In this document: one piece after another, positions 53,580-60,585 of the stretch
Numbering within the stretch: position 1 is the first letter of the stretch
Layout: each line of letters begins with the position of its first letter
The notes under the pieces: model-generated
What the model saw: the letters and a program-made list of their open reading frames with translations, nothing else
Told to the model about the DNA's origin: nothing
Databases searched by the model: none
Assembly (NCBI GenBank): GCA_913043255.1
Contig: CAJWLK010000006.1
Span: forward strand, 1 to 64,000
Origin: an uncultured Gemmatimonadota bacterium
Lineage (GTDB): Bacteria; Gemmatimonadota; Gemmatimonadetes; Palauibacterales; Palauibacteraceae
Direction of reading: 5' to 3'
DNA length: 64,000 nucleotides
Program-made: the position numbers and the translations under genes

Positions 53580-53734
53580 CTATTGACCTCCTCATAAAAT
53601 CACCGAAAATCTATTCACTACTGGCTATGAATCTACCGACACAAAGGGTTCTACACCCGATAGGTGATATTTACTAGAGTTGTATGCTCCGTAACTCGTC
53701 GGCATTCTTTGCAACGTCGAGCTATGTTTACTCA

Positions 53735-54637
53735 ATGCACAGTGATTCCAATTTGAATAGTAGTACGCCAGAACCGACTCGGTTTCTTGAGCGCCTGCAG
53801 TCTAACAAGCCGCTCATCGGCGTTGAACTTCGTCCGCCTCGAAGGGATCTCACACGAAGCGGGGCGATAGACAGCTGGATTGATCTTTCCCATTCTGTCC
53901 GTCGCGTCGTGTCTCGTGACGCCTTTCTCATGCTCACCGATAATACAGTTGGGCAAGAGGAGGAAGAAAACCTGCAACACCTCACGGTAAATCTCACCAG
54001 TGAGGTAGAGCCTTGGCGGCTGGTCCCTTTTCTAACTACCAAGCATTCACTGGAGTACTGCCTTCATTACGGAGATCGTGCACAGCTAGGAGGGCTCGAT
54101 GCCTTAACTGTTGTTGGGGGCGATGTGATAGGCGCTGCACGCTGTGTGCCACACTCATATGAACTCAGGCAACAACTCCGTGGACGGGCACCTGGGATGG
54201 CCTTGGGTGGTTGGGTAAACCCACACCACCCGACCGATGAACAAATCCAGTTTGTCATGGACCCGAACTTCGAAGCAGACTATTACCTGACTCAAGTTGT
54301 CTCACAACACGAACTTCCCATGGTAGAGAGGTGGTTGCGCGCGACCGACGACGCGGGCCTCAATATCCCGGGAGCCTTCGGAGTCTTTTTCTATCGGAAT
54401 GGCCGACGTGATTCGCTCAAACGCCTGTCTAGCTTCTTACCAGTTCCTGTTGATGCAATAGCAGCGGAGTTTGAATCAGGCATAAGCCCTGTGAAGCACT
54501 GCGCCAATGCCATCATCGCGCTGCGTAAGCTCGGGATTAAACACATTTATCTGTGCAATCTTGGAGCACATCGCGCAGGGGCCTTATTCGAACAGATCCT
54601 TGCCGAAATACAAATACAGTCGACTGGGCCATCGTGA
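53735..54637 (+). CDS. methylenetetrahydrofolate-reductase-like protein
   Basis: 300 residues from the ATG at 53735. A TIM-barrel outline fits the MTHFR superfamily: IGVELRPPRRDLTRSGAI, LDALTVVGGD, MALGGWVNPHHPTDEQI, FEADYYLTQVV with the conserved TQ that contacts folate/FAD in MTHFR, and GIKHIYLCNLGAHRAGALFEQIL. It differs from the MTHFR domain fused in the next gene, and typical MTHFR start motifs are diverged. Probably a flavin or folate enzyme of one-carbon metabolism; exact reaction uncertain. Confidence 0.6.
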   Translation: MHSDSNLNSSTPEPTRFLERLQSNKPLIGVELRPPRRDLTRSGAIDSWIDLSHSVRRVVSRDAFLMLTDNTVGQEEEENLQHLTVNLTSEVEPWRLVPFLTTKHSLEYCLHYGDRAQLGGLDALTVVGGDVIGAARCVPHSYELRQQLRGRAPGMALGGWVNPHHPTDEQIQFVMDPNFEADYYLTQVVSQHELPMVERWLRATDDAGLNIPGAFGVFFYRNGRRDSLKRLSSFLPVPVDAIAAEFESGISPVKHCANAIIALRKLGIKHIYLCNLGAHRAGALFEQILAEIQIQSTGPS

Positions 54638-54760: not shown

Positions 54761-56611
54761 CTACTCCTGCAGCACGGCAATCGCCCGTTCTACATCACCA
54801 CCCGGCGCGGAGATAAGAACTCCAGCGACTACTGGCCGCACTTCTTCCAAAACCTCTCGAGCTATAGAGGTTCCCTCTTCGAACACTGCCGTTTCATCGC
54901 GTTCGGAGGCTCGGCGCATCCTGTCCAGTACAGATGGAGGAACCTCGACACCGGGGACCTCGTTAGCCAAAAATTCGGCGTTTTCTAATGATGTAGGAGG
55001 CCATAAACCGGCAATGAGTGGAATACCAAACTCTTCGACCAGTTTCGCAAACTTGAGAAATTGAACCGGGTTAAAAATCGGCTGGGTCACAGCGTAATCT
55101 GCCCCGGCTTCAACTTTCCAAGCGAAGCGACGAATCTCTTCTTCTATATCCATTGCACTAGGGTTGACCGCCACTCCAACCACAAAAGACGTTGGTGCGC
55201 CGATCGAACCACCTCCGGGATCGCGACCAACGTTCAACTGACGTACAACATTGGTCAGACCAATGCTGTCGATATCGTAAATGCCTCCAGTATCGTAGGG
55301 ACCTCCTCGTGGAGGATCTCCCGTGACTAGAAACAAATTTCTAAGACCTGCCGCAGCAGCCCCTAAAACATCGCTTACCATACCAAGCATATTGCGGTCT
55401 CGGCAGCTATAGTGGGCGACCGTTTCGAATCCGAGTTCGCGCTCAATGACAATGGCAGCGGGTAGTGAGGCTATCCGGCTACGGTGAACGGGACCGTCTA
55501 CAATGTGAACCGTTTCAATACCAGCGTCCTGTAAGCGCCTTGCACTCGCAAGAAGAGAATCGGGCTCCCAACCACTAGGCGGCGTGAGTTCAACACTCCG
55601 AACAAATTCACCAGATGCCAAACGGCATCCAAGTCCTGATCGGTCCGCAAGCGGCAATGGGTCAGCAACGCTCTCGTGTTCAACATCATGTACTACATGA
55701 CGTTGAACACTAACGGGACGGAACCTTTTCTTTCCAAGCAGGTCAACCATAAATCGTGTGTGCTCTGGCGTCGTCCCACAGCAGCCACCAACAAACCGAG
55801 CACCGGACTCCGCCATGCGCCTTGCATAGCGGCCCATATACTCCGGGTTCGCAAGATAAATCTTTCGATCTCGAACATCACGAGGAACACCCGCATTCGG
55901 GAGCGCGGAGACTGGTTGATCAGTGGCTGCCACCATGCGTTCTACTCCGATGAGCATCGCGGAAGGACCAACAGAGCAGTTCAGGCCAATCACATCGACA
56001 CCTGCTTGGTCGAGGCTTTGAGTGGCAACTTCAATGGTTGTGCCGTAAGCCGTAGCCCCTTCTTCACCGAAAGACATTTGGGCAAATACAGGGGCACTGC
56101 CCGCTACGTTTCGAACTGCACGGACTGCTTGCAGGAGTTCATCGAGATCAGCAAAGGTCTCGAGCATGAAGCCATCTACGCCACCCTCCGCCAATCCAAT
56201 GGCCTGTCGCTCAAATATCTTCGTTGCCTCGTCGACCGATGTCGGCCCCCATGGTTCGATTCGGATACCCAATGGGCCTATTGCCCCGAGTACACTTGCT
56301 CGGCCTCGGGAGCTTTGAATGGCTAACGTCGCTGCAACCTCATTGATTTCTTCGGTGCGATCCTCCAGTGCAAAGGCACTGAGTTTGAGGGGATTGGCAC
56401 CAAACGTGTTGGTCTCGATCAGTTCGGCTCCGGCCCGTACGTATTCCGCATGTACGGAGAGCACCACTTCGGGGTTACTCAGATTAAGCTCATCAAAGCA
56501 CTTGTTTACAAAGACCCCGTGTTGATAGAGCACAGTTCCCATCGCACCATCCAGGACATGCACACCACCGTCCTCAACCAACTCCCGCAGCCGGCTTCTT
56601 CCCTCACTCAT
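54761..56611 (-). CDS. bifunctional homocysteine S-methyltransferase / methylenetetrahydrofolate reductase
   Basis: 616 residues. N-terminal homocysteine methyltransferase (about 1-300) with DGAMGTVLYQHG, ETNTFGANPLKLSAF, the zinc cysteines in GLNCSVGPSAM and GGCCGTTPEH. C-terminal MTHFR (about 335-600) with SVELTPPSGWEPDSLLASA, VAHYSCRDRN, LFLVTGDPPRG, GADYAVTQPIF and LIAGLWP. Start taken at the ATG at 56611, close after metH. The fusion can both make 5-methyl-THF and transfer methyl groups; metH next door uses that donor. Confidence 0.92.
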   Translation of the reverse strand: MSEGRSRLRELVEDGGVHVLDGAMGTVLYQHGVFVNKCFDELNLSNPEVVLSVHAEYVRAGAELIETNTFGANPLKLSAFALEDRTEEINEVAATLAIQSSRGRASVLGAIGPLGIRIEPWGPTSVDEATKIFERQAIGLAEGGVDGFMLETFADLDELLQAVRAVRNVAGSAPVFAQMSFGEEGATAYGTTIEVATQSLDQAGVDVIGLNCSVGPSAMLIGVERMVAATDQPVSALPNAGVPRDVRDRKIYLANPEYMGRYARRMAESGARFVGGCCGTTPEHTRFMVDLLGKKRFRPVSVQRHVVHDVEHESVADPLPLADRSGLGCRLASGEFVRSVELTPPSGWEPDSLLASARRLQDAGIETVHIVDGPVHRSRIASLPAAIVIERELGFETVAHYSCRDRNMLGMVSDVLGAAAAGLRNLFLVTGDPPRGGPYDTGGIYDIDSIGLTNVVRQLNVGRDPGGGSIGAPTSFVVGVAVNPSAMDIEEEIRRFAWKVEAGADYAVTQPIFNPVQFLKFAKLVEEFGIPLIAGLWPPTSLENAEFLANEVPGVEVPPSVLDRMRRASERDETAVFEEGTSIAREVLEEVRPVVAGVLISAPGGDVERAIAVLQE

Positions 56612-56617
56612 CGGCAA

Positions 56618-59600
56618 TCATTCTTTCGGGTCGTAGCTGAGGCTAGGTGATAGTAAACGCTCGGCCTCCGCCGATTCGATCTCACGCCTGCGCGTGTAAT
56701 CTTCGACTTGGTCTCGACCGATCTTACCTACACCGAAATAGTGTGCCTCGGGGTGCGCAAAGTACCAACCACTAACGGAAGCTGCCGGCACCATCGCGAA
56801 AGATTCGGTGAGTTCAATCGCCGTGTTCGAACGCACATTGAGGAGTTCAAAAAGAATCTCTTTCTGAGAATGATCGGGACACGCAGGATAACCAGGCGCA
56901 GGCCGAATCCCGACGTAGGCTTCGCGTATGCGCTCTTCGTTTGAGCATTCCTCTTCATCTGCATACCCCCAGAGGTCCTTCCGAACGACCTCGTGCAGAT
57001 GTTCAGCAAGTGCTTCGGCCAACCGATCAGCAAGCGACTTAGCGAGCAAACTCTGGTAATCATCCTGCTCTGCTTCAAGCGACGCGCAAAACTCATCGAG
57101 ACCAATACCCGCCGTGACGGCAAAAGCACCACTCCAGTCTGGAATCCCCAGACCTTCGTCCACAACGAAATCAGCAAGCGAAAGATTGGGACGTGAGCCT
57201 TTTCGCTCCATCTGTTGACGAAGATGCGAGACAACCGCAAGTGACTCAGATCTTTCTGGATCGTTGAAGAACACAATGTCATCTCCGCGGGAGACGGTAG
57301 GGAATAGTCCCGCAACGGCGCGTGCCGTAAGAACATCATCGCTGACGATACGATCAAGAAGGCTTGTTGCGTCTTCGAAAAGTGTGCGCGCAGCTTGACC
57401 CACCGTCTTATCCTCGAGCACCTCAGGGTAGCGGCCCTTGATCTCCCATGCCCGAAAAAACGGTGTCCAATCAATGTAATTGACCAGAACATCTAACGGA
57501 TATGGATCGAAAACGTGGACACCCGGCTTTCGTGGGGCTTGAGGAGGAAACGCCGAAGAGTCGATCTTTAACCGGTTCTTGCAAGCAATTTCAAATGGAA
57601 CCAGACTACGGGAACGTTCAGAAAAATCGGAACGTATCTTTTCGTACTCACCCCGAACGTTTGCGATGAAGTCCGAGGACCTTTCTTTACTGAGAAGATC
57701 TCCTACCACACCCACAGCTCGAGATGCATCGAGAACATGGACCGTCGCCCCAGAGTACTGTTGTTCAATGCGCACGGCGGTATGCTTCCTGGAGGTGGTA
57801 GCGCCTCCGATTAGTAGTGGAAGCTCAAAGCCTTCACGATCCATCTCCGACGCGACTGTTACCATATGGTCAAGCGATGGAGTAATAAGACCACTCAGCC
57901 CAATTATATCGACGCAATGCGCTTTGGCTTCTGCAAGGATTGTCTCTGGTGGAACCATCACACCTAAATCAATAATTTCATAACCGTTACACTGTAGTAC
58001 AACGCCTACAATATTCTTACCGATGTCGTGAACATCTCCCTTCACCGTCGCAAGGAGAACGGTGCCCTTTCCTTTCGACGCAACCGCTCCCCTCGCACCC
58101 ATTGCTTTCTCAGCTTCCAGGTACGGCACGAGGTACGACACTGCTTTTTTCATCACCCGAGCAGACTTCACGACTTGGGGGAGGAACATGCGCCCACTAC
58201 CGAAGAGATCCCCTACACGATTCATTCCGGCCATAAGTGGTCCCTCGATGACCTCCAGCGAAAAATCGAATTTCTGCCGTGCTTCCTCAGTATCTTCTTC
58301 GATGAACTCGACTAACCCCTCAACCAGTGAATGCTTTAGGCGTTCTTCGACTGAGAGTTCCCGCCACATATGGTCAACAACAACTTCCATACCTCGTTCA
58401 CGAATCGTCCCCGCCAAGTCGGTCAAACGCTCAGTCGCATCATTGGTTCGATTAAAGAGAACGTCCTCGGCGGCGACCAAGAGATCGGGATCGATATCAT
58501 CGTAAACGGGCAAACGACCAGCATTGACGATCCCCATATCGAGACCGGCTCTGATCGCATGGTACAAGAAAGCTGAGTGCATAGCTTCGCGCACAGCGTC
58601 GTTTCCACGATATGAGAAAGAGACATTACTGATGCCCCCGCTTGTTAGCGCACCGGGCAACTCTTCCTTAATTCGGCGTACTGCTTCCACGAACGCAGTT
58701 CCGTACTCGTTGTGCTCGGGGATTCCGGTTCCAACTGCAAATACGTTCGGGTCAAACACGATGTCCGATGATCGAAACCCGACTTCCTGCGTAAGTAGCC
58801 GATAAGCACGCGCACAAATATCGACTTTCCGTTCGATGGTGTCAGCCTGCCCTTCTTCATCAAAGGCCATCACGATCACACTCGCACCGTAGCGTCGGAG
58901 CTGGCGCGCCTGTTGTAAGAACTCATCCTCCCCTTCCTTCAGGGAGATGGAGTTCACGATCGGTCTACCTTGGACACACTTAAGACCGGCTTCAATTACA
59001 GACCACTTTGATGAATCAACAACGACCGGAACCCGAGCGATATCAGGTTCGGCTCCGATAAGGTTGAGGAACTCAGTCATCTTCGCGGCGGAGTCGAGCA
59101 GGCCTTCGTCCATATTTACATCGAGCATCTGTGCACCGCGATCCACCTGATCCCGCGCAACATCTAGAGCCTCCTCTAGACGTTCCTCACCTATAAGCCG
59201 TGCAAAACGTGCGGAGCCCGTCACATTCGTCCGCTCACCAACATTCACAAACAACGTCTCTGGGCGGATCACAAAAGGTTCAAGTCCTGCAAATCGTGGA
59301 AAAGGCTCTGCCTCGATGGGGACACGGGGCGAAACACCAGTTACACGATCAGCTATGGCTCTAATGTGGTCCGGGCCAGTACCACAACACCCCCCTACAA
59401 CGTTCAAAAGGCCACGGTCCGCAAAGCCTCCAAGGACGTCAGCCATGTGTTCAGGTGTATCGTCATAACCTCCAAACTCATTCGGGAGGCCTGCGTTGGG
59501 GTGACAGCTGACGTTCGTCTCCGCGACTCTCGCAAGATCCGCGATGTAGGGCGAAAGTTCGACGGCACCGAGCGCACAGTTCAGGCCTACAAAAATCGGA

Positions 59601-60328
59601 TCAGCATGACGGATCGAGATCCAGAATGCCTCAACCGTTTGACCTGATAGCGTGCGCCCAGAAAGGTCGGTGATTGTACCCGATATCGCGATTGGAATTT
59701 CTTCTTCAAGTTCTTCGGAAAGTTGGAGGATCGCGAAAATCGCTGCCTTACAGTTGAGGGTGTCGAAAACGGTCTCGATGAGAAGCACGTCAGCTCCACC
59801 CGTGAGCAACCCAATGGCCTGCTCACGGTACGCTGCGACTAATTCATCAAAGGTGACCGCACGGAAGGCAGGGTTTTCGACGTCGGGGGAGAGGGATGCG
59901 GTCTGGTTTGTGGGCCCTAAACTCCCCAACACAAAACGCGGCTTCGACACATCCGCCTGAGTAAACTCATCCGCTAGACCTCGGGCAATTTCCGCAGCCG
60001 CCACATTAATCTCACGCACAAAGGCGTCCATCCCATAGTCCGACTGTGAGATCTCCTGCGCATTGAACGTATTTGTGGTGATGAAATCAGCGCCCGCTTC
60101 TAGATAGGCCCGATGAATGGCAGCCATGTCCTCCGAACGCGTGATTGACAAGAGATCATGGTTTCCTAGGAGGGGTGCAGGGTGATTAGCGAATCGATCT
60201 CCACGGTATGCATCTTCACCCAGAAGAAGATCTTGGATCATTGTTCCGGTCGCCCCATCCAACACGAGAATACGCTCAGCTAAGGACGATCGAAGACGGT
60301 GGATTCTTTTTGTGCGTGTGCTTGACAC
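56618..60328 (-). CDS. metH: cobalamin-dependent methionine synthase
   Basis: About 1,236 residues with all four modules: homocysteine domain (1-330; [37 protein letters not shown]), pterin domain (about 355-620; [36 protein letters not shown]), B12 domain (about 640-900; [14 protein letters not shown] with the cobalt His, [29 protein letters not shown]) and the C-terminal reactivation domain (about 920-1236; [34 protein letters not shown]). I favour the GTG at 60328, which has GAGG at good spacing, over the GTG at 60334. A SAM-II riboswitch and terminator lie directly upstream. Confidence 0.97.
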
Positions 60329-60341
60329 AGACACCTCAATT

Positions 60342-60376
60342 AAAAAACCCCGGTCGCCAAGAAATGCGCCCCGGGG
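60342..60376 (-). terminator. intrinsic terminator in the metH leader (attenuator)
   Basis: Minus-strand stem CCCCGG/CCGGGG with a 17-base loop, followed by six T. It sits 13 bases before the metH GTG and directly after the SAM-II aptamer, the right geometry for SAM-dependent transcription termination. The bases just before the stem (ACCACG) can also pair perfectly with the 5' strand of aptamer stem P1. Confidence 0.78.
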
Positions 60377-60382
60377 CGTGGT

Positions 60383-60434
60383 TCTTTAGCGAGTTGTTTA
60401 GCGTGGCTGCAATCTGCCTCAAATCACCACGAGT
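60383..60434 (-). ncRNA. SAM-II riboswitch aptamer upstream of metH
   Basis: The minus-strand sequence lines up with the known 52-base SAM-II aptamer. P1 is CGTGGT/GCCACG. The invariant blocks GATTT and ATTGC lie in the loop, and GCTAAA in the 3' tail. In SAM-II the loop bases pair with the tail as a pseudoknot; here loop GG faces tail CC where the classical RNA has loop CC and tail GG, a compensatory change. Its position before metH, a methionine-pathway gene, and the following terminator make an OFF switch by S-adenosylmethionine likely. Confidence 0.85.
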
Positions 60435-60585
60435 GGGCTAATATTGCCCGTGATTCAACTTATCGGGTGTTAAAGGTGTTGGAAACGTGCAGAGGAAAAT
60501 TGTTAAAGCTTTGGGTTGTCCTGTATCTTGTGGGTTCATAGTCCAAAGTGTGAAAAAAATTCCGGCGTAGGACGACCACATACTT

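Follow-up and report, generated by a model that had tools for sequence, protein, structure and literature searches.

The window, a stretch of 64,000 nucleotides, comes from an uncultured Gemmatimonadota bacterium whose genus is that of Candidatus Palauibacter, which NCBI places in Gemmatimonadota. Its minus strand carries metH, the gene for a B12-dependent methionine synthase, whose product matches the NCBIfam models NF007024 (1950.7 bits) and TIGR02082 (1613.2 bits) together with five MetH Pfam domains. Directly after metH, with no gap, comes a gene for a homocysteine methyltransferase joined to a methylenetetrahydrofolate reductase (MTHFR), and the two genes are probably carried on one transcript. 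Upstream of metH, and read in the same direction, lie a SAM-II aptamer and an intrinsic terminator hairpin, with the following parts from 5′ to 3′ along the transcript.

60366 to 60440, minus strand: SAM-II aptamer, extent of the Rfam match (RF00521, 50.5 bits)
60426 to 60431, minus strand: 5′ strand of helix P1, CGTGGT (sequence; partner 60407-60402)
60417 to 60418, minus strand: 5′ strand of helix P2, GG, in the aptamer loop (pair counts, 137 leaders)
60402 to 60407, minus strand: 3′ strand of P1, GCCACG (sequence)
60385 to 60390, minus strand: SAM-site tail, GCTAAA (sequence; no change across the 14-leader genus alignment)
60382 to 60392, minus strand: 5′ strand of a candidate antiterminator, TCGCTAAAGAA, overlapping the tail (pairs at 10 of 11 positions with 60364-60354; p 0.0085 by shuffling)
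60380 to 60381, minus strand: 3′ strand of P2, CC (sequence; pair counts)
60377 to 60382, minus strand: ACCACG, candidate partner of P1 in an alternative helix, P1alt (complete in each of the 14 distinct genus leaders)
60347 to 60377, minus strand: intrinsic terminator hairpin, GCCCCGG...CCGGGGT (-18.8 kcal/mol, z -2.55)
60354 to 60364, minus strand: 3′ strand of the candidate antiterminator, TTTCTTGGCGA, within the terminator hairpin (folding; pair counts)
60342 to 60347, minus strand: U6 tract of the terminator (sequence; consensus scan)
60334 to 60337, minus strand: Shine-Dalgarno-like GAGG (sequence; 5 nt before GTG 60328)
56618 to 60328, minus strand: metH, B12-dependent methionine synthase, 1236 aa from GTG 60328 (NF007024, TIGR02082, Pfam)
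54761 to 56617, minus strand: bifunctional homocysteine S-methyltransferase and methylenetetrahydrofolate reductase (NF006396, 626.7 bits; PF02574, PF02219)

A second GTG, at 60334, is a possible start of metH; relatives have GTG-TC at the matching place, which makes GTG 60328 the likelier one. A preliminary description of this DNA had assigned 60342-60434 to a riboswitch with a terminator upstream of metH, a span that is too short, as the Rfam match runs from 60440 to 60366 and the gene more probably starts at GTG 60328. A scan upstream of the window's leader gave no promoter of the sigma-70 type. Most genus leaders carry a GCTAGTTTTG-like element about 28 bases before P1, which is absent in the window and in leader L003. 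The Bacteroidetes -7 motif is TAnnTTTG, and the element, which resembles it in sequence, is possibly a promoter. Beside the methionine genes, on the plus strand (53684-54637), stands an open reading frame of 317 aa, for which neither Pfam nor NCBIfam gave a match at E 0.001.

The SAM-II aptamer

The preliminary description had proposed the aptamer from an alignment of its parts, namely a minus-strand P1, a loop with GATTT and ATTGC and the tail GCTAAA (60390-60385), all of which are present, and had named a search with the Rfam covariance model as its check. Run on the 64-kb window, RF00521 (SAM_alpha, that is SAM-II) matches 60440-60366 of the minus strand with 50.5 bits against a gathering cut-off of 36 (E 2.1e-8), and in the source genome (2.45 Mb, 93.9% complete) this is the single RF00521 match at E ≤ 0.001. 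The long-loop SAM-II subtype (RF01726) was rejected, as its score of 26.1 bits in the window falls below the gathering cut-off of 44. P1 consists of six pairs, five Watson-Crick and one G-T. The conserved core of GATTT, TTGC and GCTAAA, which we take to hold the bases that contact SAM, is present in the window, aligned to the RF00521 model, and invariant in 14 genus leaders.

The pseudoknot helix P2 had been described as carrying compensating GG/CC changes in the window, and that change is real, but the window retains only two of the three usual P2 pairs: GG/CC is intact, while at the innermost position C 60416 stands opposite A 60382. Among the 137 leaders that share the window's loop length, the three P2 positions are paired in 113, 129 and 134 cases and the innermost is C-G in 132; in the 13 other distinct genus leaders P2 is GGC/GCC. 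The window's C x A may lower the affinity for SAM, or it may be an assembly error.

Judged by its covariance-model match and its core, the element is a new member of the known SAM-II class, and its RNA would be expected to bind SAM. It resembles SAM-II (RF00521), as presented in the available parts of Corbino et al. 2005 (PMC1273637), in P1, the GATTT...TTGC loop, the GCTAAA tail, a probable P2 pseudoknot, the methionine gene downstream and, as in many published members, a terminator downstream. It differs in its short loop, its P2 of 2-3 bp and its Gemmatimonadota host.

Distribution in Gemmatimonadota and beyond

At E ≤ 0.001, RF00521 matches 239 of the 394 genomes of the class (197 above the cut-off) and 29 of 60 relatives including the source genome (23 above the cut-off), and it matches none of 14 control genomes. 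The suggestion that the element belongs to a lineage other than the Alphaproteobacteria and Bacteroidetes is borne out: the host is a member of the Gemmatimonadota, and by these counts no isolated oddity within its class. Within the genus, SAM-II stands directly before metH in 15 of 17 genomes, which are all 15 that possess SAM-II; G013 has metH with no SAM-II in the 550 bases upstream, and G006 yielded no complete metH. A broader scan gave at least 117 stretches, and among the 80 matches listed most are from Gemmatimonadota, alongside records labelled Latescibacterota, Marinimicrobia, Caldithrix, Fraserbacteria and Alphaproteobacteria. In a part of the literature that we could consult (PMC3766115), SAM-Alpha is filed among the motifs confined to three taxonomic groups or fewer, and in the open-access literature, supplements aside, we found no paper on a SAM-II riboswitch in Gemmatimonadetes, Gemmatimonas or Latescibacter; the paper on the Palauibacterales (PMC10469786) mentions a riboswitch once. 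To the groups in which SAM-II is frequent these counts add the Gemmatimonadota, with one genus that keeps metH behind it in 15 of 17 genomes.

Three further motifs, before a second metH of G011 (L177, on G011:C18) and the metH genes of G046 (L178) and G026 (L181), look by eye like SAM-II with a very short P1, and Rfam reports none of them even at E 0.1; the true frequency of SAM-II may be higher than counted. Matches to SAM-I (RF00162) and SAM-II occur together in 13 of the 17 genus genomes (G000-G016), and the source genome has SAM-II only. Species with both classes were not known to Barrick and Breaker 2007, as far as the excerpts of that paper go (PMC2258182). In one genus-level group (g5), G020 has SAM-I before metH (L176, 274-392, on G020:C199) and G027 has SAM-II there (L002, on G027:C212), as if one riboswitch class had replaced the other at this gene; contamination of the metagenome-assembled genomes is possible, and the G027 gene was judged from its N-terminus by eye. 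The SAM-I of G020, a genome of the window's family, shares with the window's element the gene and the expected ligand and differs in aptamer class, scoring 76.2 bits in L176.

The terminator and the mode of control

The six-pair GC stem (CCCCGG 60376-60371 with CCGGGG 60353-60348) is followed by T6 (60347-60342) and then by metH, just as had been described. The terminator stretch with its U tract folds at -18.8 kcal/mol (z -2.55), and 4 of 200 shuffles are as good; the leader as a whole (111 nt) has an unremarkable fold (z -0.92), which 31 of 200 shuffles equal or better. In L003 the stem reads CCCCAG/CTGGGG, a compensated pair relative to the window. With aptamer, terminator and metH in line, we predict transcription attenuation of metH as the likely mode of control, in agreement with the earlier proposal.

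A mainly translational switch, in which the folded leader would mask the ribosome site near GAGG and GTG 60328, would also suit the position of the hairpin and U tract directly before both, the U6 ending 4 bases upstream of GAGG and 13 bases before GTG 60328. The metX SAM-II is translational, according to the portions seen of PMC10907184, S. meliloti metA is under two-way regulation, according to those of PMC9373788, and one genus leader, L003, has a poor U tract (TTTCGTG). However, GAGG lies outside both aptamer and hairpin, a run of at least four T follows the stem in 12 of the 13 other genus leaders, and a hairpin of -14 kcal/mol or lower with a T-rich tract is found in 169 of 212 leaders against 503 of 6000 random windows, so that we regard a mainly translational switch as unlikely. 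The sections of PMC6061858 to hand describe most SAM-II as transcriptional and the solved metX RNA as a rare translational case. They also describe SAM-V, whose pseudoknot core and SAM site are closely similar to those of SAM-II and which is translational, its P2a including part of the Shine-Dalgarno sequence, whereas that of the window lies outside the aptamer.

Two candidate alternative folds

The preliminary description had pointed to an alternative fold, P1alt, in which the 5′ strand of P1 pairs with ACCACG (60382-60377); as a switching helix it would form in the absence of SAM. The complement is indeed perfect over six bases, P1alt is found in full in all 14 distinct genus leaders, which represent one lineage, it would exclude both P1 and P2, and it appears in the minimum-energy fold. 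In that fold of the full-length leader, however, P1alt forms together with the terminator. The two overlap only at G60377, a base that can either complete P1alt as its last pair or form the terminator's outermost G-U, and because they share this one base and coexist, P1alt would not prevent termination. Nor is it enriched: 21 of 212 distinct leaders have P1alt in full, and shuffles give 21.0 on average and 32 at most. P1alt as the antiterminator was rejected on these two counts and is distinctly unlikely to be the switching fold; it could act as a brake or timing element. An extended form, in which the terminator's 5′ arm would be sequestered by the bases preceding P1 (CCGG in most leaders of the genus), was seen by eye only and dropped, being unsupported in L003 and not clean in the window, with a flank that is possibly untranscribed.

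The second candidate lies between the aptamer tail and the loop of the terminator. The window's tail UCGCUAAAGAA (60392-60382) pairs with UUUCUUGGCGA (60364-60354) at 10 of 11 positions, an A x C being the exception (p 0.0085, 2000 shuffles). Folded by itself, the antiterminator reaches -15.1 kcal/mol (z -1.97), a value that 8 of 200 shuffles equal or better. Of the 13 other genus leaders, 11 form all 11 pairs (p 0.0005-0.002) and two, L003 and L014, form 9 of them (p 0.0155 and 0.023), and this expression platform is conserved over the 14 distinct genus leaders. When the transcript was grown in 4-nt steps and folded, a calculation that leaves out the pseudoknot, SAM and kinetics, the minimum-energy fold consisted of P1 and the antiterminator at 76 and 80 nt, and the terminator with P1alt entered it from 84 nt; L004 and L042 showed the same order of folds. 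At full length the window's minimum-energy fold, P1alt with the terminator, corresponds to the OFF state without SAM. Tested with a nine-base tail, the window gives a p of only 0.083. On the sequence comparisons, we consider the pairing of tail and terminator loop the better-supported alternative fold of the two.

Tail complements across lineages

Among those listed of 144 leaders compared by eye, the terminator loops often seemed to carry a complement of the tail. In three sets we counted leaders whose terminator hairpin, of -8 kcal/mol or lower, contains TTT[AG]G[CT], the complement of GCUAAA, and compared them with dinucleotide shuffles of the same hairpins. In the first set the complement is present in 33 of 137 leaders (shuffle mean 7.7, maximum 14). 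In a fresh set, fetched after the idea had arisen, it is present in 13 of 44 (mean 2.2, maximum 7); these leaders are from the same class, and partly from the same genomes, as the first set and are therefore not fully independent of it. In an alphaproteobacterial sample it is present in 0 of 15 leaders with a terminator (mean 0.9, maximum 3), which by our criterion is a further difference of the window's element from SAM-II there. Hairpins of 6000 random windows (loci L031-L147) have it in 39 of 1580. Because the leaders share ancestry, all these counts overstate their independence.

The underlying idea preceded the fresh set, whereas the hexamer criterion itself was fixed in the same script with which that set was first analysed. 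The fresh set began as 60 loci and left 45 leaders, and the alphaproteobacterial sample as 29 loci (L192-L220), which left 20 leaders, 15 of them with a hairpin; the sample consists of these loci alone, and the first set (ids below L192) also includes alphaproteobacterial leaders. Leaders were dropped when the aptamer pattern had fewer than 5 of 6 P1 pairs, when fewer than 75 bases lay downstream or when they were identical to another (L011, the same as L010; and L073, the Candidatus Palauibacter poriticola leader). The letter N was treated as A in most sequence computations.

Pairing outside the selected core gives a second line of evidence. Over tail positions 7-9 of 18 hairpin clusters, 44 of 54 pairs are Watson-Crick, whereas permuted tails average 32.6 (p 0.0002). 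At position 8, A-U (8 clusters) alternates with C-G (6), at position 7 A-U (14) with G-C (2), and position 9 is uninformative (p 1.0). Pairing of the tail with the terminator loop, with compensatory changes, extends to other Gemmatimonadota, Latescibacterota and a Caldithrix MAG. Shuffled sequence by sequence, only 8 of 50 cluster representatives come out at p ≤ 0.05, of which 7 are also at p ≤ 0.01, and a duplex-energy version of the test gives 11 of 51 and 5 of 51. The window, L003 and L014 fall outside the 46 leaders selected by the strict core, and the window's A x C sits within that core. Among the 46 are misses that were retained, L031, L161 and L235 with the match in a stem and L064 and L117 with pairing lost beyond the core. 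The core complement is absent in 150 of the 196 leaders with a terminator hairpin, so other platforms exist and the tail type is one among several.

The genes that follow tail-type leaders were checked by Pfam at eight tail-type loci out of ten, L037 (not tail type, with a doubtful ORF) and L050 (no pattern match) being excluded and L048 being tail type by eye, outside the 46. All eight are methionine or SAM genes: metH, metK, a Cys/Met PLP enzyme or homocysteine methyltransferase/MTHFR.

Proposed mechanism

The reading that explains these observations best is a SAM-II attenuator of metH that uses the tail and the terminator loop as its antiterminator; reasoning from sequence and folding, we give it a probability of about 0.7. 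With SAM bound, P1 and the P2 pseudoknot would keep the tail GCUAAAGAACC within the aptamer, the free GCCCCGG would pair with CCGGGGU to form the terminator, and polymerase would stop at U6, leaving metH off. With no SAM, the freed tail would pair with UUUCUUGGCGA once that segment has been transcribed. The antiterminator hairpin UCGCUAAAGAA:UUUCUUGGCGA would enclose the 5′ arm of the terminator and occupy its loop and inner 3′ side, so that termination would be hindered and metH made. The window's own antiterminator, imperfect as it is, is presumed to work in the same way.

Such a scheme, off at high SAM and on at low SAM, fits the OFF-switch logic in print for SAM-II, as found in the available text of PMC1273637. 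The S. meliloti metZ SAM-II of Scheuer et al. 2022 (PMC9373788) is alike in that, in the part of that paper at hand, its aptamer, once SAM is bound, is predicted to lead to a Rho-independent terminator, and it differs in gene and host, being before metZ in Alphaproteobacteria where the window has metH in Gemmatimonadota; for S. meliloti metA, the same part states, a SAM-II-driven antiterminator could not be predicted.

Whether SAM-II riboswitches of Gemmatimonadota, Latescibacterota and their kin share a hitherto undescribed platform, in which the terminator loop complements the invariant SAM-site tail (GCUAAAnnn), is in our judgement an even call. If they do, the bases that hold SAM would double as the antiterminator strand, and since the tail is unable to occupy the SAM site and the antiterminator at once, SAM binding and antitermination would be directly exclusive. 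The covarying antiterminator offers a concrete model, open to testing by mutation. That the window's element is a decayed, non-functional relic in the source genome, as the C x A in P2 and the A x C in the antiterminator might suggest, is very improbable, given that the core nucleotides, terminator and U6 are all retained and that its 50.5 bits exceed 13 of the 14 other genus matches, only that of G004 (L003) being higher at 53.7.

Other platforms and variants

A 'loop type' of platform, in which the 5′ strand of P2 (for example GCCGCG) pairs with the 5′ arm of the terminator, is visible by eye in many leaders but stands out little from shuffles, with p ≤ 0.05 in 7 of 51 representatives and p ≤ 0.01 in 0; it was set aside and stays a lead. 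In alphaproteobacterial leaders the tail GGTCGGG seems, by eye, to pair with a terminator arm, CCCTGACC, and one of these leaders, L214, has a p of 0.025 in the tail test. Five leaders of the same order as the window (L022, L024 and L027-L029) form a variant with an extra base after P1 (GGTGGA-CTGATTTGTGGCCGCTTGCAACCACC in L024), and by eye they appear to have a separate terminator further downstream.
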